47,620 bases of DNA from a virus, in IMG/VR virus record IMGVR_UViG_3300023096_000007, positions 1 through 47,620 of that record; one strand, given 5' to 3'. A program made the translations under genes and the position numbers. Under the pieces are notes generated by a model. The model had not been told where the DNA came from, searched no databases, and saw only the letters and a program-made list of their open reading frames with translations. Shown here piece by piece: positions 26,840 through 41,062 of the stretch. Within the stretch, counting starts at the first letter, position 1; each line of letters begins with the position of its first letter.

Positions 26840-26910
26840 AGGAAGCCTTTAAATACTCTAAAATCTATCTTGTTCATTAGGTTTTATTCACTAAGTGGCG
26901 TTTCTACATA

Positions 26911-27108
26911 TCAACCGACTAGCGAATATTGAAAATGCTCTTCTAACTTTAACGCTCTACTACGCATCATCAAAGTCATGGGTAATTGTTCGCCTTTTTT
27001 AATCTCAAGTAAGTTAGCAAATTCTTTTAGATATTTATTCACATCACCACCATCATCTAGCGTTAATGAGCCATCTTTATTAAGTCTTAATCTATCTGGT
27101 AATTTCAT
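26911..27108 (-). CDS. Hypothetical protein in leftward operon
   Basis: 65 aa, 'MKLPDRLRLNKDGSLTLDDGGDV...' with a helical charged C-terminus. AAAGG ribosome site 5 nt upstream. No family recognised. Gaps of about 50-70 nt on both sides hold only ribosome sites. Confidence 0.5.
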   Translation of the reverse strand: MKLPDRLRLNKDGSLTLDDGGDVNKYLKEFANLLEIKKGEQLPMTLMMRSRALKLEEHFQYSLVG

Positions 27109-28577: not shown

Positions 28578-29297
28578 CTAATGGTTATGATCGTTAGCAA
28601 TCTTATCTAACATTTCATTAAAGTAATTCTGACAAGCGGTTACTTTAACTTTTATGTTTTCTTCAATGTCTAAATCGCGCTCGTATTGAACAACAGTAAC
28701 GCGCATCTTTTCATCAATTCCATCAACAATATGCTGGTCAATCGGTTCATATTTAATTAAATGCTCTGGCGTGTTTACCATACAAAAAGCATTTTCAAAT
28801 AAATCTTTATTCCATAGCATCATGTAAGCCCTGCCCTGCCACTCATAAAGCTTGTCTACGGCATCTTCTGACACACATGGGAACGTAGATAGCGACCAGG
28901 ATGATTTAACGTCTACAATCTTGTCTGGCGCGTCTACATCACATTCACCCGTTAACCATTTATTCGTTTTACGCTCTGTGTTTTTAACGTAGTCAGTTTT
29001 AAATACATTGTTATAAAGTGCTATTGAATCATCTTCAACTAATATGCCTTTTTCCATGTATTTTGAACTAACGGAATCTTTAAAGCCATAAACGTATTCG
29101 CGTGCTAGTTTCTTAATGTGAGTTTTTGCGCCCACAGATAAAGATTTATTCCAATACGGTTCTAAAATAGCTTTTTCTTCATCAGTTTTCTTTTTCTTAT
29201 TATTTATTTCGATCAACTCATCATTCAGCAAAGACTTATCAATGCTTTGAGCATCTGTCATAACACAACCAAGTTCATGCGCTCTAATTAGTAGCAT
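28578..29297 (-). CDS. PD-(D/E)XK exonuclease (YqaJ/RecE-like)
   Basis: 239 aa. 'GECDVDAPDKIVDVKSSWSL' gives the catalytic D...(D)xK arrangement of RecB-family phage exonucleases, followed by 'YEWQGRAYMMLWN' (the conserved Q helix). It directly follows the ERF annealing protein, a standard exonuclease/annealing-protein pair for recombination-dependent repair or replication. Start at 29297 (GAGG upstream) rather than a longer form beginning at 29360, because the latter overlaps ERF by 77 nt. Confidence 0.75.
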   Translation of the reverse strand: MLLIRAHELGCVMTDAQSIDKSLLNDELIEINNKKKKTDEEKAILEPYWNKSLSVGAKTHIKKLAREYVYGFKDSVSSKYMEKGILVEDDSIALYNNVFKTDYVKNTERKTNKWLTGECDVDAPDKIVDVKSSWSLSTFPCVSEDAVDKLYEWQGRAYMMLWNKDLFENAFCMVNTPEHLIKYEPIDQHIVDGIDEKMRVTVVQYERDLDIEENIKVKVTACQNYFNEMLDKIANDHNH

Positions 29298-29919
29298 TTT
29301 TAGCCTCGATTGCAGCTTTAAGTTTTTTTGTTTTTTCGCCAACAGCTTTAAATCCAGCAATATCTTTTAGACGGGTTGATTCTTTTTTCGCTTCAACGTA
29401 GTTAGATTGCAATTCTTCTAGCGTGGTTGATTTTTCTAGTAAGTCGTTATAAAACGCAAGGTCAAATGTTTCTTTTTCTTGGTAACGACTTTCTTCATCA
29501 TCGCCACTCTCAATCTCAAAGAGTTTTAATACGGCGTACTTTTTGGCATAGCTCAATGCTTTACCTGGTGCTTTGTCTGCGTTATCAAGCGCGTGCGCTT
29601 CAATGCGAATAACTATTTTGTCGTCTAGATTATCAATGCTTGCGAAAGTAATGTCGTAAGTGGCTTCGTACATGCGTTGTTTTGCTTGCGTGCCGTCAAC
29701 ATTAACCGTTGGTAGATTCATAACGCTTGCAATTAAGTAAGGGAATGAAACAACTCCTTGCGACACCATGTGTTCACGCACCATACCTGTCACAGCATCG
29801 TGGCTTAATGCCTTATAGCCACCACTTTGGCCAGTAGAAACGTTTTTATCTTTTTGCATGTACGTGATTAACTTTCTTACTTCGTTAATTCGTTGCAAAA
29901 TATTCTTTGAATCACTCAT
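29284..29919 (-). CDS. erf: ERF family single-strand annealing protein
   Basis: 211 aa. 'GGYKALSHDAVTGMVREHM' and 'ALDNADKAPGKALSYAKKYAVLKLFEIESGDDEES' are the defining ERF motifs. It anneals complementary single strands and often circularises or recombines phage DNA. GGGAG ribosome site. Overlaps the exonuclease gene by 14 nt. First gene after the E1 RNA element and its promoter. Confidence 0.93.
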   Translation of the reverse strand: MSDSKNILQRINEVRKLITYMQKDKNVSTGQSGGYKALSHDAVTGMVREHMVSQGVVSFPYLIASVMNLPTVNVDGTQAKQRMYEATYDITFASIDNLDDKIVIRIEAHALDNADKAPGKALSYAKKYAVLKLFEIESGDDEESRYQEKETFDLAFYNDLLEKSTTLEELQSNYVEAKKESTRLKDIAGFKAVGEKTKKLKAAIEAKNATN

Positions 29920-29938
29920 TACTTACTCCCAAAAACGC

Positions 29939-30039
29939 AAAAAGCCCTAGACAGTTATCTCACCACTAATGTGGCGTTGGCGGATTCCGAGTAGGAACAG
30001 ATAACTGACTAAGGCTTACTCTAAATGCCGCCAAGCAAT
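29939..30039 (-). ncRNA. Structured RNA element E1, ~100 nt, terminator-ended
   Basis: On the minus strand, 30017-29999 pairs with 29960-29942 over 19 positions (one U-U mismatch at position 10, one G-U at position 14), closing a multi-branch loop with hairpins UUCC-UACUC-GGAA and CCAC-AUUA-GUGG. A U-run follows the closing stem, so it also reads as an intrinsic terminator. A TTGACA promoter lies just upstream. E2 at 33400-33507 has the same plan with compensatory changes. Could be a small RNA or an attenuator in front of erf; not recognised. Confidence 0.75.
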
Positions 30040-30045
30040 GACTAT

Positions 30046-30074
30046 ATTTAATATTAACTACTCAACAATGTCAA
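30046..30074 (-). promoter_or_regulatory. Promoter for E1 RNA
   Basis: Minus-strand TTGACA (30074-30069), 17-nt spacer, TTAAAT (30051-30046). Predicted start about 30039, 20-odd nt before the E1 closing stem. It lies in the end of the 42-aa membrane-peptide gene. Confidence 0.55.
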
Positions 30075-30182
30075 CAAAAATAAACCAGCTACCAAACTAC
30101 CAACAAAACTACTTATAGCAAACACTTGATAGCCGATACTAGGCTCATCTTTAGGTATGTAGTGTTTTAGATCGTATGGCAT
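30054..30182 (-). CDS. Tiny membrane protein
   Basis: 42 aa: polar N-terminus (MPYDLKHYIPKDEPS) and one membrane helix (VFAISSFVGSLVAGLFLLTLL). TAATG overlap with the upstream gene. Unknown. Confidence 0.5.
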   Translation of the reverse strand: MPYDLKHYIPKDEPSIGYQVFAISSFVGSLVAGLFLLTLLSS

Positions 30183-30427
30183 TATTTATTCCCTTCTAAA
30201 ATCATTGCATCAGCAAGTCTAAAATACAGAGCTACTCTATGAGCGATAATATCATCCGATATTTCACCGCCAGCCCATCCATCACCAGCAGAGGCATCGC
30301 CTTGCATAGCCTTAGCTGCATAATATTGACGCATAGTCACGCCTTTAAATTCTTCATCCCAAGTAGTTAGTGTGCCATCTTTATCAAATGCTGTACGTGG
30401 GAAAGCTGGAAAACTTGCATCATTCAT
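30182..30427 (-). CDS. Small protein with 'TMRQYYAAKAMQG' motif
   Basis: 81 aa from ATG 30427, with GGAG about 9-11 nt upstream. 'ASFPAFPRT' and 'GVTMRQYYAAKAMQGDAS' are common to a large family of small phage proteins whose role is unknown; they are usually in leftward early operons. Overlaps both neighbours by 1-4 nt. Confidence 0.65.
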   Translation of the reverse strand: MNDASFPAFPRTAFDKDGTLTTWDEEFKGVTMRQYYAAKAMQGDASAGDGWAGGEISDDIIAHRVALYFRLADAMILEGNK

Positions 30428-30627
30428 TTTGAACTCCAATTTATTAACCGATGTGGCTTAGCGCAAAATCCTGGCTTGATGCGCTTCTTAAAATCACCTT
30501 GCACTAACAACCAGCCGCCCCTATGGGATGCGCTTAATCTAAATTTAATCCATTCAGGATAACTGTAAAAACTGTGGCATATCCAACCGTTCGGCGTTTT
30601 GTAAAATTCTGCGCTACCATTAACCAC
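30424..30627 (-). CDS. Hypothetical protein in leftward operon
   Basis: 67 aa, GTG start with AAGGAG site. Aromatic/basic (WICHSFYSYPEWIKFRLSASHRG). Overlaps the upstream gene by 8 nt and the next by 4 nt. Unknown. Confidence 0.5.
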   Translation of the reverse strand: MVNGSAEFYKTPNGWICHSFYSYPEWIKFRLSASHRGGWLLVQGDFKKRIKPGFCAKPHRLINWSSK

Positions 30628-30925
30628 GATTTATCTCCTTAGTTGCGCGATTGATTAAATAACTGTCAATTTTCATGCAAACAGTTTTAGCCAATACAGA
30701 CATATTCAATTGATCGTAAAGTGGGTTCTTAAACTCAACATGCGAACGATACAATGCGCGTATAGCCTCTAAAATTTCATCATTAATGATCGCATCGTCT
30801 AAATCTTCGTAATTGGCTACGTATTCTGCAACCTTGTCTGTGATAGCCTGTGAATAATCTTTATCATTCACATCCATAGCATCAGCCACATCATCACTAC
30901 TTCCATTTGCTGTTTTGTAGTACAT
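30620..30925 (-). CDS. Hypothetical acidic protein in leftward operon
   Basis: 101 aa, starting at ATG 30925 (a GTG one codon earlier is possible). Asp/Glu-rich: 'MDVNDKDYSQAITDKVAEYVANYEDLDDAIIND'. TGATG coupling with the upstream ORF. The acidic N-terminal half would fit a DNA-mimic-like or protein-binding accessory, but no family recognised. Confidence 0.5.
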   Translation of the reverse strand: MYYKTANGSSDDVADAMDVNDKDYSQAITDKVAEYVANYEDLDDAIINDEILEAIRALYRSHVEFKNPLYDQLNMSVLAKTVCMKIDSYLINRATKEINRG

Positions 30926-31041
30926 CACATACCTCGATATATATTTTCAATTTGTTCATCTGTTAACTGTGGGATGTGCTCATCGCTTTCCCAGTTATAG
31001 CTAGATGTGAACCATGATAGGATTGATTTAATTAGTTTCAT
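30925..31041 (-). CDS. Small hypothetical protein
   Basis: 38 aa: 'MKLIKSILSWFTSSYNWESD' then an acidic tail 'IPQLTDEQIENIYRGM'. Amphipathic N-terminal helix. TGATG overlap downstream and overlap of 14 nt with the gene above. Coding status rests on coupling only. Confidence 0.4.
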   Translation of the reverse strand: MKLIKSILSWFTSSYNWESDEHIPQLTDEQIENIYRGM

Positions 31042-31336
31042 TTTTTAACTTTCCCCATAATTTATTTGTTAATTCCATTTCAAACCAAGGATAAAATCCC
31101 ATCTTCTTAAATCTAATAGTAACCAAATCAACGTTGTTGAATGTCCTTTGCCCAAATACTGTTGGCGTATAATTTAGCTTTAAAAGCTTTTTTGCATTAA
31201 AGACGAGTCTATTAGGTGTATTTTCAATAGGGTTGTAATAGCAATCTGTTATATATTTATTTTTATCAAAGTAATCGCCATCCAATTCCTTTTTGGTGAA
31301 AACTCTATTGCAATCTCCTTCTTGAAAATACTGCAC
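31028..31336 (-). CDS. Hypothetical protein in leftward operon
   Basis: 102 aa, GTG start 1 nt after the previous stop with AAGGGG upstream. Lys/Phe/Tyr-rich ('FGQRTFNNVDLVTIRFKKMGFYPWFEMELT'). No family recognised. Confidence 0.5.
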   Translation of the reverse strand: MQYFQEGDCNRVFTKKELDGDYFDKNKYITDCYYNPIENTPNRLVFNAKKLLKLNYTPTVFGQRTFNNVDLVTIRFKKMGFYPWFEMELTNKLWGKLKNETN

Positions 31337-31337
31337 G

Positions 31338-31457
31338 CTAATTCCCCTTAATCACTACATTACGATATTCGCCATCGTAAAACTTACGTCCTGCTAATCC
31401 ACCATGCAATAAAGCTTCGGGGGATTTATCAAATAAGCGTTTAATAAAGTTAATCAT
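31338..31457 (-). CDS. Small basic hypothetical protein
   Basis: 39 aa (MINFIKRLFDKSPEALLHGG...). AAAGG ribosome site 6 nt before the ATG. One nt separates it from the next gene and from the upstream one. Unknown. Confidence 0.45.
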   Translation of the reverse strand: MINFIKRLFDKSPEALLHGGLAGRKFYDGEYRNVVIKGN

Positions 31458-31458
31458 A

Positions 31459-31725
31459 TCAACCTTTCAAATCGTTAAGGTGAGGAACTAATCCCCAGTG
31501 TGAATACTCACCGATCATCTGCATTACACGTCTACCACCCAAGCTTAATCCGCTATCATCTGTAATGCCTTGCATCTGAAAACATAAAGGCGCAGACCAA
31601 ACTGATGCTAACTTATCTATCTCATTAAAGAATTTAGCTTGCGCCTCTGCATCCATGTTACAAAACAATTCAGCCACAATCTCAGGTGTGATTTCTGTTA
31701 TCACATTATCTTTAATTATTTGCAC
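31459..31725 (-). CDS. Phage accessory protein ('VAELFCNMDAEAQAKFFNEI')
   Basis: 88 aa, GTG start with GGGAG. The pattern 'I.ELF..M..e.QA.FFNEi........W...L.fQ.q.I...s.L...gR.vM..IGeY' is found in many phages of Gram-negative hosts, with no known role. Begins the compact set of leftward accessory genes. Confidence 0.6.
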   Translation of the reverse strand: MQIIKDNVITEITPEIVAELFCNMDAEAQAKFFNEIDKLASVWSAPLCFQMQGITDDSGLSLGGRRVMQMIGEYSHWGLVPHLNDLKG

Positions 31726-31752
31726 TTTAACTCCCTTGAATATGTAGCATTG

Positions 31753-31854
31753 CTACAAAAAATAATTGATCTGATGTAACAAATAAAACCAAACTGGCAC
31801 TATCACTAACAAAGCTAATGCCAAGCCATTAATAATCTTAGCCTCTACTGTCAT
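31753..31854 (-). CDS. Tiny membrane peptide
   Basis: 33 aa with a single membrane helix (IINGLALALLVIVPVWFYLL). ATGA overlap with the peptide upstream. Coding status inferred from overlap and hydrophobic profile. Confidence 0.4.
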   Translation of the reverse strand: MTVEAKIINGLALALLVIVPVWFYLLHQINYFL

Positions 31855-31925
31855 ATTGCATATCCCAATGAGGACATAGCAGCGATAAAAACAATCACTA
31901 AGCAAGCGTTAATAAAATCTTTCAT
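31851..31925 (-). CDS. Tiny membrane/signal-like peptide
   Basis: 24 aa (MKDFINACLVIVFIAAMSSLGYAI), almost entirely one hydrophobic helix. ATGA overlap with the next peptide. AAGGA about 7 nt upstream of the start. Function unknown. Confidence 0.4.
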   Translation of the reverse strand: MKDFINACLVIVFIAAMSSLGYAI

Positions 31926-31961
31926 TTTCAATCCTTATTCATTAATGTTAATCGGTATTAA

Positions 31962-32111
31962 TTAATAAGCCTGACGACCCCAAGGCGCATATTTGTTTCT
32001 TTCCATCGCGCGGTGGTCAATTTTATAAACAGGTGCATTTACCCAACGTTTAGTTAATCCTGCGCCTAATAAAATCTTTGTGATTAGTTCGCCTGTTTGT
32101 ACGTATTTCAT
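31962..32111 (-). CDS. First gene of the leftward early operon, small basic protein
   Basis: 49 aa, with GGAG 9 nt before ATG 32111. 'YVQTGELITKILLGAGLTKRWVNAPVYKIDHRAMERNKY' is basic and helical. Transcribed from the leftward promoter at 32209-32237, about 90 nt upstream. First early leftward proteins often act on the host or on antitermination; nothing here proves it. Confidence 0.5.
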   Translation of the reverse strand: MKYVQTGELITKILLGAGLTKRWVNAPVYKIDHRAMERNKYAPWGRQAY

Positions 32112-32208
32112 TTTATTACTCCATATTTATTAATAAATTATTTTATTACTTAGCAACCGTCCCGCTTATCGCTATTGCGAATCACCTACGAGTTGCAACC
32201 ACAACTAC

Positions 32209-32237
32209 ATCTTAAAACATCCAATTCATAAAGTCAA
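32209..32237 (-). promoter_or_regulatory. Leftward early promoter
   Basis: Minus strand TTGACT (32237-32232), 17-nt spacer, TAAGAT (32214-32209), predicted start near 32202. It faces away from the rightward promoter at 32271-32298, which has the same -10 hexamer. Good consensus match. Confidence 0.65.
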
Positions 32238-32248
32238 CACCTTTAGTG

Positions 32249-32268
32249 CATTATTTGTACGATAAATG
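32249..32268. promoter_or_regulatory. Imperfect palindrome between divergent early promoters (candidate operator)
   Basis: CATTATTTGTACGATAAATG: 7 of 10 base pairs symmetric about the central GTAC. It lies between the leftward and rightward -35 boxes, the place expected for a Cro-like protein (32325 gene) to shut off both. Confidence 0.45.
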
Positions 32269-32270
32269 TA

Positions 32271-32298
32271 TTGCTTTATTAATTCAATATGCTAAGAT
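32271..32298 (+). promoter_or_regulatory. Rightward early promoter
   Basis: TTGCTT, 16-nt spacer, TAAGAT; predicted start near 32305, just before the AAAGG ribosome site of the HTH gene. The weak -35 suggests activation or weak basal use. Confidence 0.5.
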
Positions 32299-32324
32299 AA
32301 GCCATGTTTAAATGAAAGGTAAAT

Positions 32325-32543
32325 ATGAATCCATTAACTAAGATGCTTAATTTGTTTTACAACCAGCGCGAATGTTCAGATGAAATGGTAATAGGACAAA
32401 CAACATTAAGCGGCTGGGTAAAGAAAGGCTTTATACCTTACAAAAACGCTGATTATATTGAGCAGCAATCAATGGGCAGGATTAAAGCTGATGACGTTCG
32501 TAAATACGCTATTAAGATGCGTAAAGCTAGAAAGGCTGATTAA
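32325..32543 (+). CDS. Small HTH regulator (Cro/YdaS-like)
   Basis: 72 aa. 'EMVIGQTTLSGWVKKGFIPYKNADYIEQQSMGRIKADDVRKYA' has the helix-turn-helix and following 'P...a..ie..t.G.i...dv' pattern of Cro/YdaS-type proteins, which bind operators at divergent promoters. First gene of the rightward early operon, with a palindrome just upstream. No CI-like partner was found divergent to it. Confidence 0.75.
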   Translation: MNPLTKMLNLFYNQRECSDEMVIGQTTLSGWVKKGFIPYKNADYIEQQSMGRIKADDVRKYAIKMRKARKAD

Positions 32544-32544
32544 C

Positions 32545-32853
32545 ATGGAAAAGAAACCACATAAGCACGCAGAATTAATTAAGCAATGGGCTGATGGCGA
32601 ATCAATCCAATTGCTACGCTGTGACGGAAGTTGGGGCGATACAATTAATCCTGATTGGGATGAATCAATTCGTTACCGTGTAAAAGTTGAACCTGTTATT
32701 GACGTTATATTTTTTGTTTATAGAGAAGGTCAATACTGGAAAGCTGGATCGCACATTGATGTTGGAGAAAATACTGCAATACCATTTTCTGGCGAAGACT
32801 TAAAAATAACTTACCACGATGGTAAAGCCGTTAAGTCTCAATTGGCTGATTAA
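32545..32853 (+). CDS. Hypothetical phage protein ('KPHKHAELIKQWADG')
   Basis: 102 aa. 'KPHKHAELIKQWADGESIQLLRCDGSWGDTINPDWDESIRYRVK' is a recurrent phage module ('W.dg..iq.....g.W.d...P.w.....yRik'), function unknown. Start 1 nt after the HTH gene stop. Confidence 0.65.
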   Translation: MEKKPHKHAELIKQWADGESIQLLRCDGSWGDTINPDWDESIRYRVKVEPVIDVIFFVYREGQYWKAGSHIDVGENTAIPFSGEDLKITYHDGKAVKSQLAD

Positions 32854-32894
32854 TCGGCATACCTACCTAATACACAAAACAGAAAGGATTTAAG

Positions 32895-33155
32895 ATGATA
32901 AAGGCTGGAGATTTGGTGATAGTAATTAAACCTAGTCATTGCTGTAATTCATATGGGTCTATTGGACTTATTTTTAAAACAGCGAATCTAAAAAGAAGTA
33001 AGTTTGGAATTTGTGAATGTGGTGCTATTGATTTTAATGATAATCGGTATATTGGATTGGTCGGAGGTGGTTTTATTTTAAAATCACGCCTCAAAAAAAT
33101 AGACCCACTATCAGAACTAGATGATATTAGAACAGATGAAAGTATTAGTGCTTGA
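32895..33155 (+). CDS. Small beta-rich hypothetical protein
   Basis: 86 aa. 'IKAGDLVIVIKPSHCCNSYGSIGLIFK' and 'RLKKIDPLSELD' recall SH3-like small phage proteins with two Cys pairs (CC, CEC). AAAGGA ribosome site. Unknown. Confidence 0.55.
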   Translation: MIKAGDLVIVIKPSHCCNSYGSIGLIFKTANLKRSKFGICECGAIDFNDNRYIGLVGGGFILKSRLKKIDPLSELDDIRTDESISA

Positions 33156-33224
33156 ACCCTAAAGCTATTTTGTTCATTAGATTTTCTCTTTTAAGTAGCA
33201 TTACTACATATGAAAGGTTTTAAA

Positions 33225-33386
33225 ATGGTAGATTCAGATGCTTTAGAAACAATATTATTGCGGATAACAGAAACGATTTGGCAAGTTAATCATTCTGTTG
33301 GCAATCACTCATTAAGAGAACAAATTAAGAATGAATTGAATGTAATAAATTATGAAATAAAAAGTTTGACAAGTAGTAAGAAGTAA
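33225..33386 (+). CDS. Small helical protein
   Basis: 53 aa, with AAAGG 7 nt upstream of ATG 33225 (an ATG 15 nt earlier is in frame). 'LETILLRITETIWQVNHSVGNHSLREQIKNELNVINYEI' looks like two helices. The E2 promoter (TTGACA) sits inside its 3' end. Unknown. Confidence 0.45.
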   Translation: MVDSDALETILLRITETIWQVNHSVGNHSLREQIKNELNVINYEIKSLTSSKK

Positions 33387-33393
33387 GTAAAAT
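33366..33393 (+). promoter_or_regulatory. Strong promoter for E2 RNA
   Basis: Perfect TTGACA, 16-nt spacer, TAAAAT (5 of 6). Predicted start near 33400, 27 nt before the E2 closing stem. Same arrangement as the E1 promoter on the other strand. Confidence 0.7.
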
Positions 33394-33399
33394 TCAGTT

Positions 33400-33507
33400 A
33401 TCACTTGCAGGTGGTTTATTATGAGTAGCCATTAGACAAAACCCTGCACCTACTCGGTGTCCTGCAACCAAGCGAAAGTTTGGAGGGTTTTGCCTAGTGG
33501 CTTTTTT
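33400..33507 (+). ncRNA. Structured RNA element E2, ~108 nt, terminator-ended
   Basis: 33427-33445 pairs with 33484-33502 over 19 positions (A-C mismatch at position 10, G-U at 14, the same places as in E1), enclosing CACC-UACUC-GGUG (33447-33459) and CCAA...UUGG (33468-33483). UUUUUU follows. The UACUC loop and the segment 'UCC.GC.AAC' are shared with E1 while the stems differ with compensating changes. Lies between a strong promoter and the replication genes. Small RNA, attenuator or antitermination signal; not recognised. Confidence 0.78.
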
Positions 33508-33521
33508 ATTGGACGTTTAAT

Positions 33522-33659
33522 ATGAAAACAACCGAAACACAAGAGTTTAAAGACGCGATTCACTTATCCAAGTTAATCCCTTTAGGTAAAAAAACTCAAG
33601 CTAAAAAAGACGCTGTACATAGACTAGCTTTAGCATGGCAGAAAATGCTTAAAGCCTAA
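33522..33659 (+). CDS. Small basic protein before the replication genes
   Basis: 45 aa (MKTTETQEFKDAIHLSKLIPLG...), lysine-rich C-terminus. 2 nt before the DUF1376 gene. Weak ribosome site. Unknown. Confidence 0.45.
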   Translation: MKTTETQEFKDAIHLSKLIPLGKKTQAKKDAVHRLALAWQKMLKA

Positions 33660-33661
33660 TC

Positions 33662-34381
33662 ATGCACTACTATCAATTTAACATTGGTGATTACAAAACA
33701 CACACAGGGCATTTAACGCCAATTGAAGACATTTGTTATCGGCGGTTGTTAGATCATTATTATCTACACGAAGAACCCCTTGAAAACAACATCGATAAGT
33801 TAACTAGACTTCTAATGTTGAACGGATATTCAACAGATGTTGAACAGGTGTTGAACGAGTTTTTCATTCTGATAGAAAACAGATGGTATAACAATCGCGC
33901 TGATGCTGAAATAACTGCTTTCCAATTGCTTAAAGACAGCAAGTCAAAGGCTGGAAAGGCAAGCGCAGCAAAGAGATTAAGCAAATCTCAACAGGTGTTG
34001 AACACGCGTTTAACAGATGAGCAACTAAACAAGAACTATAAACCATTAACTATTAACAATGATAAAAGCATTGTCATCAACGATGTTGCTGACTGTCCGC
34101 ATCAAGAGATTATATCTTTATACAAAAAAATCCTTCCAATGGGAACGATACCTTTAACGTGGGATGGTTCACGATCATCTCAATTAAAAGCGAGGTGGAG
34201 AGAACAAGCAAAAAGACAAAATCTTGATTGGTGGGAAGGTCTTTTTAAATATATTGCTCAATCTGAATTTTTAACTGGTCAGGTTAATAGTGATAAAAGA
34301 AAGCCATTTGTGATTAGCCTTGATTGGATAATTAAATCTGAAAACTTTAAAAAAATAACAGAGGGTAAATATCATGGTTGA
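33662..34381 (+). CDS. Replication protein with DUF1376 domain
   Basis: 239 aa. 'YYQFNIGDYKTHTGHLTPIEDICYRRLLDHYYLHEEPL' is the DUF1376 N-terminal domain, common in phage replication initiators; the C-terminal part ('LDWWEGLFKYIAQSEFLTGQ') matches the tails of primosomal loader-type proteins. It overlaps the helicase gene by 8 nt, so it likely loads or directs it, as gpO/gpP-like proteins do. Confidence 0.8.
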   Translation: MHYYQFNIGDYKTHTGHLTPIEDICYRRLLDHYYLHEEPLENNIDKLTRLLMLNGYSTDVEQVLNEFFILIENRWYNNRADAEITAFQLLKDSKSKAGKASAAKRLSKSQQVLNTRLTDEQLNKNYKPLTINNDKSIVINDVADCPHQEIISLYKKILPMGTIPLTWDGSRSSQLKARWREQAKRQNLDWWEGLFKYIAQSEFLTGQVNSDKRKPFVISLDWIIKSENFKKITEGKYHG

Positions 34382-35720
34382 AATGTTTAATAAATTTGCA
34401 GAAGAAAATGTCATTGGTAGCCTTACGATTAATCCGCAAGCCTTTGATGAAATACATTGGCTAACACCTGAAATGTTTTACGATCAAGCGCATGGGTTTA
34501 TATTCGCACAACTTCGTTACATGATTACTAAAAACAAACCAGTTGATTTGGTTACATTGGCGGAAGGACTTGAAGCGCGTGGAAAGCTTGAATCAATAGG
34601 CGGTTTGCCTTACCTGATTGATTTAAACAAAAACAGCATTAGCAGTCACAACATAAAACGCCATGCTGAAATTGTGCAGGAATACTCAATTAAGCGCCAA
34701 CTTTTTGCAGCAACGGATGAAATTAAAATTGACTTAATGTCTAGTGGTGATATTTATAAAAAACTAGAAAAAGCACAGGCATTGATTTTATCCATAACCG
34801 AAACAAACAATACCGCCGAACCAGTATTTGTTCGTGATTTACTGGAAGAGCGCATGGAAAGAATTGATCAAGCGTATCAAGGAAATATCAAATTAATATC
34901 AACAGGGCTTTTAGATTTAGATAAACAGCTAGGAGGTGGGATTGAAGGCGGCTCTTTAATTATTATCGCCGCGTCTGCAAGCATGGGTAAAACCGCGTTG
35001 GCTATTCAATTGGCAGAATCAATCCAAACACCCAATGAAAGCGCTTTGATATTCAGCATTGAAATGTCAAACGGCTTGCTAGTGGATCGTATGATTAGTA
35101 ACAAATCACATATTTCATCTGACAGGCTAAGAACTGGCAACATGATTGATACGGATTTTGATGGATTAATGGCATCAGTTCCTAAATTGCAATCATTAAA
35201 CATGCTTTTAGACGACAGAACAAACAAATTAAACGGCATGCGAGCTAAGGCTAGGCAAGTAAAAAGAAAACACGGTCTTTCTTGCATCGTGATTGATTAC
35301 ATCGGTTTAATGATTGAAGACGATAATTCAAAAACTAACAGCCGTGAACAACAAATAAGCACTATCACAAGGGGCTTAAAAGCGCTTGCAAAGGATTTAA
35401 ATGTTCCAGTCATAGCATTGAGCCAACTCAACAGGAAAGTAAGCGACAGGCACAATAAACGCCCTGTGATGAGCGATTTAAGGGATAGCGGCGCAATTGA
35501 GCAAGATGCGGATGTGATTATGTTCGTTTACCGTGATGACTATTATGATGTAAACAGTGCTTACAAAGGCATGGCTGAATTGAATGTGGCAAAAAATAGG
35601 AATGGTGCAACAGGGGCGGTAATGGTTAACTTTGAAAAAGAAAGAACCCTCTTTACAAGCTACACTGGCGGTATGCAAATGCAAGAAGTTAAACCACAGA
35701 AAGGCGCATATTATGATTAA
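34374..35720 (+). CDS. Replicative DNA helicase, DnaB-type
   Basis: 448 aa. N-terminal DnaB domain (residues 1-110, 'AEENVIGSLTINPQAFDEIHWLTPEMFYDQAH'), C-terminal RecA-like ATPase with Walker A ASASMGKT (200-207), Walker B in 'LSCIVIDYIGLM' and the 'ALSQLNRKVSDR..KRPVMSDLRDSGAIEQDADVI' motif. 5'-3' ring helicase that also contacts primase. Walker A is SASMGKT rather than the usual RPSMGKT. Confidence 0.95.
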   Translation: MVEMFNKFAEENVIGSLTINPQAFDEIHWLTPEMFYDQAHGFIFAQLRYMITKNKPVDLVTLAEGLEARGKLESIGGLPYLIDLNKNSISSHNIKRHAEIVQEYSIKRQLFAATDEIKIDLMSSGDIYKKLEKAQALILSITETNNTAEPVFVRDLLEERMERIDQAYQGNIKLISTGLLDLDKQLGGGIEGGSLIIIAASASMGKTALAIQLAESIQTPNESALIFSIEMSNGLLVDRMISNKSHISSDRLRTGNMIDTDFDGLMASVPKLQSLNMLLDDRTNKLNGMRAKARQVKRKHGLSCIVIDYIGLMIEDDNSKTNSREQQISTITRGLKALAKDLNVPVIALSQLNRKVSDRHNKRPVMSDLRDSGAIEQDADVIMFVYRDDYYDVNSAYKGMAELNVAKNRNGATGAVMVNFEKERTLFTSYTGGMQMQEVKPQKGAYYD

Positions 35721-36840: not shown

Positions 36841-37181
36841 ATCTTTATCGTAAATACCAAATGTTCATCCTAAGACGCTCACTCAATCAATCCATCTGGC
36901 AATCAACTATGGAATTTAGACAATTTAAACTTCGTGAATCTGAAAAGATACTAATAATATTTCTAACATGCCTAATATCAATAGCCATCACTTTGAAATA
37001 CGCGGATTACATTGATAACGCTAGATTAGTACAATTTGACCGCGCCTTAAAAGCAGAAAGCGAAGAGCTAAAATCATCAGCTATTATTGCTACTATGCTG
37101 AATAATGATTATCTGCGCGTAGATGGTGTGCGTGCTAGGGTTAAGTTGCAGTTTTGTACAGCGGCGGGTGACTGCAAATGA
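36837..37181 (+). CDS. Membrane-anchored protein (Rz-like layout)
   Basis: 114 aa from ATG 36837. Basic N-terminus, one membrane helix (ILIIFLTCLISIAITLKYADYI, about 43-64) followed by a helical region and two Cys (QFCTAAGDC). Type II membrane topology; resembles i-spanins in layout but is far from the lysis genes. Couples to the methyltransferase by ATGA. Unknown. Confidence 0.5.
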   Translation: MNLYRKYQMFILRRSLNQSIWQSTMEFRQFKLRESEKILIIFLTCLISIAITLKYADYIDNARLVQFDRALKAESEELKSSAIIATMLNNDYLRVDGVRARVKLQFCTAAGDCK

Positions 37182-38164
37182 AATATCATTATGAATGGAA
37201 TTTAAAAGATGCTGTTTTCACTAAAGACAAAGGCAAGGTATTTAGTTGTTTTGCTTGCGGCGGTGGTTCAACGATGGGTTACAAGTTAGCTGGTTTCGAT
37301 GTGATAGGCTGCAATGAAATTGATCCGCGCATGATGAAAGCTTATATTGAAAATCATCATCCTAAATATTCATTCTTAGAACCAATTCAAGATTTTAAGA
37401 ATCGTGATGACTTGCCGGAAGAATTATTCGATTTAGATATTCTGGATGGTAGTCCGCCTTGCAGTAGCTTTTCAATGGCCGGCTTACGTGAAGAAGCATG
37501 GGGTGAAGAAAAACATTTTAGAGAAGGTCAAGCAGAGCAGGTGTTAGATACGCTGTTTTTTGATTTCATTGATTTAGCAAAAATATTGCAGCCAAAAATA
37601 GTAATAGCTGAAAATGTAAAAGGTTTATTACTAGGCGAAGCTAAAGCTTATGTTCTTAAAATATACAATGAATTTGAATCTGCTGGCTATTACGTTCAAC
37701 ATTGGTTATTAGACGCATCAAAAATGGGTGTGCCGCAGAAACGTGAAAGAGTTTTCTTTGTTGCCTTAAGAAAGGATCTGGCAGGCCAATTTTTAGATGC
37801 AGTTGATTTATTTACTATCGCACCCAAATTAAAACTTGTTTTTAATCATAAAGAGATACCAATTAAAGAGTTTGTAAAAGGGATTACAAAGCGCGACACA
37901 CAAAACTATTCTGAAACAAGATTTGGCGATGTAATGCTTGATATTAATAAACCTAGTAACACTATTGCGACAGATATTAATCGTTATTGGCTTGATGAAA
38001 ATACATTGATTGATGATAGAAGCAAAAAACTCATTGGCAGCTATCCGCTTGATTATGAATTTGGCACAGAAAATCCACAATATTTAATTGGAATGAGCGT
38101 ACCGCCTTTAATGACTGCACACATAGCAGATGAGATTTATAGTCAATGGTTGAGTAAATTGTAA
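37178..38164 (+). CDS. DNA cytosine-5 methyltransferase
   Basis: 328 aa. Motif I FSCFACGGGS (22-31), motif IV GSPPCSSFS with catalytic Cys95, ENV at 145-147, QKRERV at 187-192 and motif X near the end (IGMSVPPLMTAHIADEI). The target-recognition region between VIII and X is short, so it is likely a solitary phage methyltransferase that protects DNA from host restriction. No cognate nuclease is next to it. Confidence 0.93.
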   Translation: MKYHYEWNLKDAVFTKDKGKVFSCFACGGGSTMGYKLAGFDVIGCNEIDPRMMKAYIENHHPKYSFLEPIQDFKNRDDLPEELFDLDILDGSPPCSSFSMAGLREEAWGEEKHFREGQAEQVLDTLFFDFIDLAKILQPKIVIAENVKGLLLGEAKAYVLKIYNEFESAGYYVQHWLLDASKMGVPQKRERVFFVALRKDLAGQFLDAVDLFTIAPKLKLVFNHKEIPIKEFVKGITKRDTQNYSETRFGDVMLDINKPSNTIATDINRYWLDENTLIDDRSKKLIGSYPLDYEFGTENPQYLIGMSVPPLMTAHIADEIYSQWLSKL

Positions 38165-39500: not shown

Positions 39501-39852
39501 CACGCACATTGATTTTTATAATTACATGGGCCGCGTGTTCGGTTCACGTTTTATCGAAAAGCAAGTTGGCTTAAAGGTTTATGACGATGCAAATAAGCAA
39601 TGGGTTATTGCCTTGCAAGATAATATATTAGTTGGGTTTTGTTCATTACAGGCTAACACTGTTTCTGATTGTTTTGTATATCCTAATTATCGAAACAAAG
39701 GCATATTTAATTCGATGCTGGATAGCCTATTAAAAGATGCAAGTTATCGCGCTGTGTGTACTAAAATGAGTGTTACAGCCTTTCTTAATCGCGGGTTCAT
39801 CTTAACCAAACAAACTAAAAACTTCTTTTTTGTGGAGAGAAAAAATGCCTAA
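39475..39852 (+). CDS. GNAT-type N-acetyltransferase
   Basis: 125 aa from ATG 39475. 'NILVGFCSLQANTVSDCFVYPNYRNKGIFNSMLDSLL' carries the acetyl-CoA loop (RxxGx form YRNKGI). The C-terminal part 'CTKMSVTAFLNRGFILTKQTKNFFFVER' is the typical beta5-6. It could act on a protein, a metabolite, or on modified bases, since the operon also encodes a PAPS-reductase-like enzyme. Confidence 0.75.
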   Translation: MLEIMQINSTHIDFYNYMGRVFGSRFIEKQVGLKVYDDANKQWVIALQDNILVGFCSLQANTVSDCFVYPNYRNKGIFNSMLDSLLKDASYRAVCTKMSVTAFLNRGFILTKQTKNFFFVERKNA

Positions 39853-41062
39853 AATTGGACTTGGTATAAATGTGCATCAAGCGGCAATTGAGCGCATTGA
39901 ATGGACTTTTGATAATTTTGAAAGAATCTATATCAGCTATAGTGGCGGTAAAGATTCAGCGGTTATGTTGCACTTGGTTATGGATGAAGCTATTAAGCGC
40001 GGGCGTAAAATTGGCATGTTCCTGATTGATTGGGAAAATCAGATAACGCACACAATTGACCATATCAGAGATATGTACGAATTATATAAAGATCATGTAG
40101 AGCCTTATTGGGTTGCCCTGCCAATAACTACATGGAATGCTTGCAGTCAAATAGAGCCAGAGTGGACTGCTTGGGATGAAAATAAAAAAGAACTATGGGT
40201 TAGACAACCCGATCCTATGAGCATCACAGATAAATCTGTTTTCCCATTCTATTATGACGGAATATCATTTGAGGAGTTTGTACCTCTATTCGGTGAGTGG
40301 TATGCACAAGGTAAAGAATGCGCTTGTTTCGTTGGAATTAGGGCAGATGAGAGCTTGAATCGATTTAGAACTATTGCACGCGACAAAGACAAGAAAGACG
40401 GTAAAGCGTGGACTACATCCGTTATTGCTGATGTGTGGAATGTTTACCCAATTTACGACTTTAAGACAGCGGATATTTGGCGCTACTTTTCTAAGTTCAA
40501 TAAGCCTTACAATAAGCTTTATGACTTCATGCACCAGGCTGGCATTAAAATATCACAGATGCGTATTTGTGAGCCATTCGGCGATGAAGCTAGAAAAGGA
40601 TTATGGCTATATCAGGTTGTTGATCCTGCAATGTGGGCTAAAGTATGTTTACGGGTAGCTGGCGCAAACACAGGCGCTTTGTACGCCACTGAAAAAGGCG
40701 CGGTAATGGGTAACTATTCAATTGACTTGCCAGCTGGCCATACGTTTGAATCTTTCGCCAAACACTTGTTAAATACAATGCCACCTAAAACATCCGTGCA
40801 TTATAAAAACAAAATAGCAGTTTATTTAAACTGGTGGTCAAAACGTGGATATGATGAAGGAATCCCAGACAAGGCAGACAAGAAAATAGAGGCGCTTGGC
40901 AAAGTTCCGTCATGGCGCAAGGTGGTAAAGGTCATTCTAAAAAATGATTATTGGTGCAAAGGTTTAGGATTTAGTCCTACAAAATCTAGCGCATACAATA
41001 ATTATCTTGAGTTGATGAAACGCCGCAGGGCTGAATGGAATATTCAAGCGATTGAATCATGA
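39845..41062 (+). CDS. PAPS-reductase-family (IbrA-like) PP-loop protein
   Basis: 405 aa from ATG 39845 (GGAG 7 nt upstream; TTG 39830 is in frame). PP-loop SGGKDS at 33-38, then an ATP-pyrophosphatase core, 'FVGIRADESLNRFRTIARDK', 'YPIYDFKTADIWRYF', and the DUF3440-like C-terminus ('GLGFSPTKSSAYNNYLELMKRRRAEW'). Close in layout to IbrA of E. coli prophages, which act together with IbrB. Overlaps NinB by 4 nt. Confidence 0.85.
   Translation: MPKIGLGINVHQAAIERIEWTFDNFERIYISYSGGKDSAVMLHLVMDEAIKRGRKIGMFLIDWENQITHTIDHIRDMYELYKDHVEPYWVALPITTWNACSQIEPEWTAWDENKKELWVRQPDPMSITDKSVFPFYYDGISFEEFVPLFGEWYAQGKECACFVGIRADESLNRFRTIARDKDKKDGKAWTTSVIADVWNVYPIYDFKTADIWRYFSKFNKPYNKLYDFMHQAGIKISQMRICEPFGDEARKGLWLYQVVDPAMWAKVCLRVAGANTGALYATEKGAVMGNYSIDLPAGHTFESFAKHLLNTMPPKTSVHYKNKIAVYLNWWSKRGYDEGIPDKADKKIEALGKVPSWRKVVKVILKNDYWCKGLGFSPTKSSAYNNYLELMKRRRAEWNIQAIES

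Follow-up and report, generated by a model that had tools for sequence, protein, structure and literature searches.

The window analysed here, the whole 47,620-nt stretch of phage DNA, carries two copies, E1 and E2, of an RNA element that belongs to an apparently undescribed RNA class found in environmental phages, with strong covariation and sited at a replication control point. This new RNA family, which has no entry in Rfam 15, is represented on viral contigs by more than 120 distinct sequences. We consider it fairly probable that E2 and E1 are cis-acting transcription attenuators, in which a fold made of two extra pairings, PK1 and PK2, acts as the antiterminator. If this is so, the element would be an RNA-only gate on the phage replication genes, with the two extra pairings set against one terminator stem.

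E2 is located at about 33400-33507 on the plus strand, ~108 nt from the P0 hairpin to the U-tract, behind the sequence TTGACA-16-TAAAAT (33366-33393, +). The initial annotation had described this sequence as a near-consensus promoter, in agreement with a match at 11 of the 12 consensus positions; the site is the top one of ten in the region 29800-33800, which, scanned as a whole, showed no excess of promoter-like sites, and the spacing of the -10 hexamer in 124 elements (see below) points in the same direction. GGCUUUUUU forms the 3' end of the RNA and lies 14 nt upstream of the ATG at 33522. The sequence bears out the proposed arrangement, an RNA of about 108 nt closing in a U-tract just before the replication genes. 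The first gene 3' of E2 encodes 45 aa (33522-33659, +) and is followed by an initiator-like DUF1376 gene, of primosomal, replication-initiation type (33662-34381, +), and a DnaB-like replicative helicase gene (34374-35720, +); an SSB gene also lies downstream. As for the extent given earlier, the observation itself stands and the start has to be moved, since the RNA should open with the P0 hairpin, which at about 33400 is the probable 5' end of E2.

From 5' to 3', the element consists of P0, a spacer, the PK2 strand, P1, P2, the junction strand J2/3, P3, the second strand of P1 and the U-tract, with P1, P2 and P3 forming a three-way junction of which P2 and P3 are the hairpins. In E2 (all on the plus strand), covariation places the hairpin P0 at 33400-33415 (ATCAC and GTGGT around the hexaloop TTGCAG), the PK1 5' strand TTGCAG at 33405-33410 with its partner CTGCAA at 33462-33467, the PK2 5' strand GAGTA at 33423-33427, immediately 5' of P1 and with the P2 loop TACTC as partner, and J2/3, CCTGCAA, which is the PK1 3' strand, at 33461-33467. 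Folding together with covariation defines the P1 5' strand (AGCCATTAG, mismatch A, CAAAACCCT; 33427-33445), the hairpin P2 (33446-33460, apical loop TACTC at 33451-33455), the hairpin P3 (33468-33483) and the P1 3' strand (33484-33502), in which the lower half (33494-33502) makes up the terminator stem. The U-tract, read from the sequence, covers 33503-33507 and is TTTTTT when 33502 is counted. Across the family, P0 usually has 5-6 bp with an invariant CUUG..GG and a UUGNNG hexaloop; the P1 5' strand has 19 positions, ungapped in the 35-element alignment, in a 9+1+9 bp stem with a central mismatch in 94/124 elements; P2 has 5-6 bp and a loop of 4-7 nt, J2/3 is CCNNCAA and P3 is variable in length. 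The junction is tight, CUG 5' of P2 and GAG 3' of P3 being nearly invariant. Such conserved junction letters are compatible with a riboswitch; the downstream genes suggest no ligand.

E1 spans 30039-29939 on the minus strand, and a promoter-like sequence, TTGACA-17-TTAAAT, is read directly at 30046-30074 (-). Its parts, on the same strand, are P0 (30025-30039, loop TTGGCG at 30034-30029), a core running from PK2 through P1, P2 and J2/3 to P3 that is delimited by folding and the covariance model (29942-30021), and a U-tract read from the sequence (29939-29943). Within the core lie the PK2 strand GAGTA (30021-30017), P1 (30017-29999 with 29960-29942), P2 (29998-29984, loop TACTC at 29993-29989), J2/3 CCGCCAA (29983-29977) and P3 (29976-29961). 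An Erf-like annealing gene (29284-29919, -) starts 22 nt past the E1 stem. The initial annotation had taken E2 for a diverged second copy of the RNA of E1 and had suggested a comparison of their structures; folding gives an identical P1-P2-P3 dot-bracket for both (P1 of 9 bp, a 1x1 mismatch and 9 bp; P2 of 5 bp with loop UACUC; a 7-nt linker; P3 of 6 bp), with z-scores of -5.2 for E2 and -5.0 for E1 and none of 200 shuffles equally stable, and a single covariance model matches E1 and E2, and nothing else, in the 47.6 kb record. PK2 is common to the two copies; PK1 and the stems of P1 and P2 differ between them, the PK1 letters being UUGGCG in E1, as in most elements, and UUGCAG with CUGCAA in E2.

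Two copies are an exception, peculiar to this phage: each of 128 other viral records, many of them fragments and several longer than 50 kb, has exactly one. The commonest PHROG matches of the first genes downstream of the element are primosomal and replication-initiation families and E1 precedes Erf, so that the position of E2 is the usual one and E1 looks like an extra copy placed before a recombination gene. These data also bear on a put-like processive antiterminator, in which the nascent RNA would be kept on RNA polymerase and later terminators ignored. A folded 5' RNA domain sited in two divergent early operons is what such a reading expects, but E1 and E2 are not made of two stem-loops, they include a terminator-like stem with a U-tract as an inherent part, and the 128 other records have the single copy; we regard it as very unlikely.

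Several other features of the window were observed. The near-perfect palindromes TGTAGCATTGCTACA (31743-31757) and AGTAGCATTACTACA (33194-33208) flank the divergent early region; they resemble operators, with a number of matches only mildly above chance. A 54-nt direct repeat, 78% identical, is present at 26861-26914 and 33161-33214, its second copy spanning the second of these palindromes, ahead of the ORF at 33210. The window also encodes a phosphoadenosine phosphosulfate reductase (39830-41062) and a cytosine-C5 methyltransferase (37178-38164).

A short pattern from the core common to E1 and E2 retrieved 46 viral stretches, most of which fold alike and carry a further 5' part beyond the limits initially annotated. 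Broader patterns gave many more candidates, of which a structural filter left 124 unique elements; this filter demanded complementary PK1 middle bases and a 19-position P1, so the PK1 and P1 counts in that set hold partly by construction, while PK2 played no part in the final filter and a set of 35 elements was unfiltered for PK1 and P1. The covariance model R1, built from the 35 elements with the pseudoknots PK1 and PK2 absent from it, scores 61-116 bits on 88 elements from 87 sources. Rfam 15, searched at the gathering threshold and permissively up to E = 10 with the window and ten related loci, gave no relevant match across the element. A similarity search with E2 among phage records had no match, one with a sister sequence matched MW202462 and MW202544 only, and a plasmid similarity search returned no match. 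In MW202462 (L373:817-1059), the annotation places a hypothetical protein across the RNA element, on the opposite strand; it is probably no real gene. The complete, annotated phage genome MW202520 contains a very diverged relative (L376:2867-2986, 33 bits) with its own PK2 letters, CCAACA/UGUUGG, suggesting a family far broader than the present patterns capture. In bacterial genomes the strict pattern had no match and the broad pattern at least 119, two of which, among the matches listed, pass the structural filter; thus, at least two bacterial contigs have true copies, a Rhodospirillaceae metagenome bin (L330) and Polynucleobacter sp. UK-Kesae-W10 (L355). The latter is a named host genome in which an initiator-like gene lies downstream of the element and the opposite strand bears a helix-turn-helix repressor-like gene. 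The open literature, to which the search was confined, yielded no account of this RNA.

The structure is strongly supported by covariation. In the 35 elements 97.6% of cells are paired and double changes occur in 28/43 pairs, all controls being far lower; in the 88 elements the values are 98.0% and 34/43, with a covariation score of 0.578 compared with 0.158 for shuffled alignments. Covariation scores are ~3-4 times those of shuffled controls and at least 6 times those of any slid structure. PK1 pairs the P0 hexaloop UUGNNG (UUGNNGG) with CNNCAA of the junction (CCNNCAA) and covaries: in the 35-element set, not selected for PK1, it is paired in 35/35, and both of its variable positions show double changes. 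PK2, between the strand just 5' of P1 and the P2 loop, covaries as well, GAGUA/UACUC here being one of 35 Watson-Crick types (e.g. GGGUA/UACCC, CAGACA/UGUCUG, AGGC/GCCU), and its mean length is 4.75 bp vs 3.13 bp after swapping loops among the elements. A standard intrinsic terminator, perhaps with an added decorative hairpin, would account for the GC-rich stem and the U-tract, but it is contradicted by the covariation of P0, PK1 and PK2, and an ungapped P1 with a central mismatch and one architecture in more than 120 distinct elements also speak against it, which leaves it with hardly any probability.

The covariation of PK2 also changes the reading of GAGUA. The initial annotation had seen this motif as an outside target, through which free small RNAs would act near other ribosome sites; GAGUA instead belongs to each element and pairs with its own UACUC loop, the two covarying as partners within the element, and on this ground a primary role through GAGUA targets in trans was rejected. 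In two close pairs, L200/L244 and L185/L239, PK2 has changed completely with all other compared helices identical, and such a whole-PK2 switch suggests a specificity code. The variable PK2 therefore raises the question of a cis switch only vs a self-recognition code. In the latter case, a terminated leader with free PK2 strands would pair in trans with a nascent leader of the same type, block its antiterminator and shut off the replication genes, as superinfection immunity or copy-number control. The number of PK2 types, their switching as a unit between near-identical elements and the PK2 shared by E1 and E2 despite their differing PK1, P1 and P2 stems would fit; against this, across close pairs the P3 stem and the middle bases of PK1 change at least as fast as PK2, and chance alone could well place the commonest PK2 type in both copies. 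We judge this quite unlikely. Diversifying selection on PK2 is not supported, the pairs being suggestive but the average rate equal to that of the P3 stem. A phage self-recognition RNA in the full sense, with each attenuated leader accumulating as a small RNA, its free PK2 strands matching same-type leaders only and forcing termination there, and PK2 types constituting RNA-coded immunity or copy-number groups, is also unlikely in our estimate; if true, there would be switching between PK2 types comparable to that of plasmid incompatibility loops.

The end of the -10 hexamer, most commonly TATAGT, lies 5-8 nt upstream of P0 in 93/124 elements, and promoter scores upstream of the elements exceed those of shuffled upstream sequence. 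A U-tract (at least 5 T in 8 nt) follows the stem in 123/124, and in most cases the first frame opening with ATG or GTG begins 13-22 nt past the stem. Among 116 first genes there are 25 DUF1376, 9 Lin1244-like, 13 HNH_3 and 1 Erf. In a fair share of the phages (L021, L055, L148, L160, L172, L184, L214, L217, L023, L026, L006 and L034) the first gene codes for an endonuclease of the homing type, HNH or GIY-YIG, which makes the junction after the RNA look like a recurrent insertion site.

With a promoter and a terminator at either copy, a discrete RNA of ~108 nt is likely to be made from both. It could be a small RNA with other targets, in the phage or the host, on which it acts in trans, the nearby gene merely reflecting compact genomes. 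The framing of the RNA by promoter and terminator in nearly all elements suits such a compact unit, and the conserved structure is more elaborate than a terminator requires. However, most elements leave no space for a second promoter before the gene start 13-22 nt downstream, the variable loop pairs inside the element and the downstream genes are biased to replication; hence we find it rather unlikely. The other reading of the initial annotation, control of transcription elongation, is supported in outline: a promoter is followed by a leader with a switchable, intrinsic terminator-like stem, then by a ribosome site and the first gene at a fixed distance.

An alternative structure that excludes the terminator is predicted computationally. 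The PK2 strand adjoins P1 with a gap of 0 nt or a one-base overlap and the P2 loop lies past the 19-position stem, at the far end of P1, so that PK2 and full P1 should be mutually exclusive in one molecule; by this geometry, zipped P1 would keep the P2 loop from easily reaching the PK2 strand. PK1 and PK2 nest, so that a single extended hairpin made of both is possible in the nascent RNA. For RNA ending before the P1 3' strand, the predicted fold has PK1 in 120/124 and PK2 in 63/124 elements, whereas in full-length RNA P1 forms in 123/124 and PK1 in 0/124. When the two middle letters of J2/3 are swapped, PK1 drops to 36/124, a control that outweighs the raw PK1 count because the 124 elements had been pre-filtered for those two letters.

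For the attenuator, we propose the following course. Transcription would begin at P0, the extreme 5' end of the early phage transcript, and once the first ~85 nt are copied the nascent RNA would pair through PK1 and PK2, confining the P1 5' strand in a constrained loop, the antiterminator. The emerging P1 3' strand could then displace PK1 and PK2, with the 9 bp of lower P1 zipping beside the U-tract, and transcription would terminate about 15-20 nt short of the first codon in the operon for replication (E2) or recombination (E1). How terminator and antiterminator are balanced may set the amount of replication and recombination protein. Since the terminator is the thermodynamically favoured form of the complete RNA in nearly every element, read-through would need kinetic control or a factor; a trans RNA, a protein, a ligand or elongation speed are candidates for the deciding signal. 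The sequences themselves establish all helices, both extra pairings, the positions of promoter and terminator, the fixed gene distance and the switch in predicted fold; real termination and read-through, and the conformer that prevails, are inferred.

Among known systems, lambda nutR-tR1 is a control point between the cro region and the replication genes, like E2 ahead of its replication genes, with a different RNA architecture. The P4 CI RNA and the P1 c4-type immunity RNAs are phage leader RNAs with termination control and possible trans pairing, and in this they resemble the present family; unlike them, E1 and E2 matched no Rfam model, c4 included, at E up to 10. The HK022 put RNA consists of two stem-loops in ~70 nt; it binds the beta' zinc-binding domain and lacks its own terminator (PMC9378689). 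The analogy with putL/putR drawn by the initial annotation is valid only for position, both being early-operon phage RNAs with position-based transcription control and, in this phage alone, two related copies in divergent operons. It fails for structure, since here a three-way junction plus P0 makes a four-hairpin RNA of ~108 nt, complete with a terminator and two extra pairings, and it fits less well for copy number: a copy in each early operon is true of the window, and the usual number is one per phage.

The ColIb-P9 repZ leader precedes a replication-initiator gene and has a 5'-UUGGCG-3' loop and a pseudoknot as switch, as in this family, where a UUGGCG loop pairs with a distant CGCCAA (PK1). 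Its control is described as translational, with an antisense RNA opposing the pseudoknot, whereas here a terminator follows at once and the scan for antisense promoters over the leader gave scores no higher than shuffled, so that by promoter scan no antisense RNA opposite the loop is indicated; the common loop letters are probably convergent. pT181 repC, described as having a countertranscript-driven attenuator (cited in PMC10724649), shares transcription attenuation before a replication initiator gene and differs in its countertranscript, an antisense-RNA attenuator being rejected here for want of an antisense promoter signal over the leader in the promoter scan. The element is a member of no catalogued RNA family tested, and it would work like a transcription attenuator.
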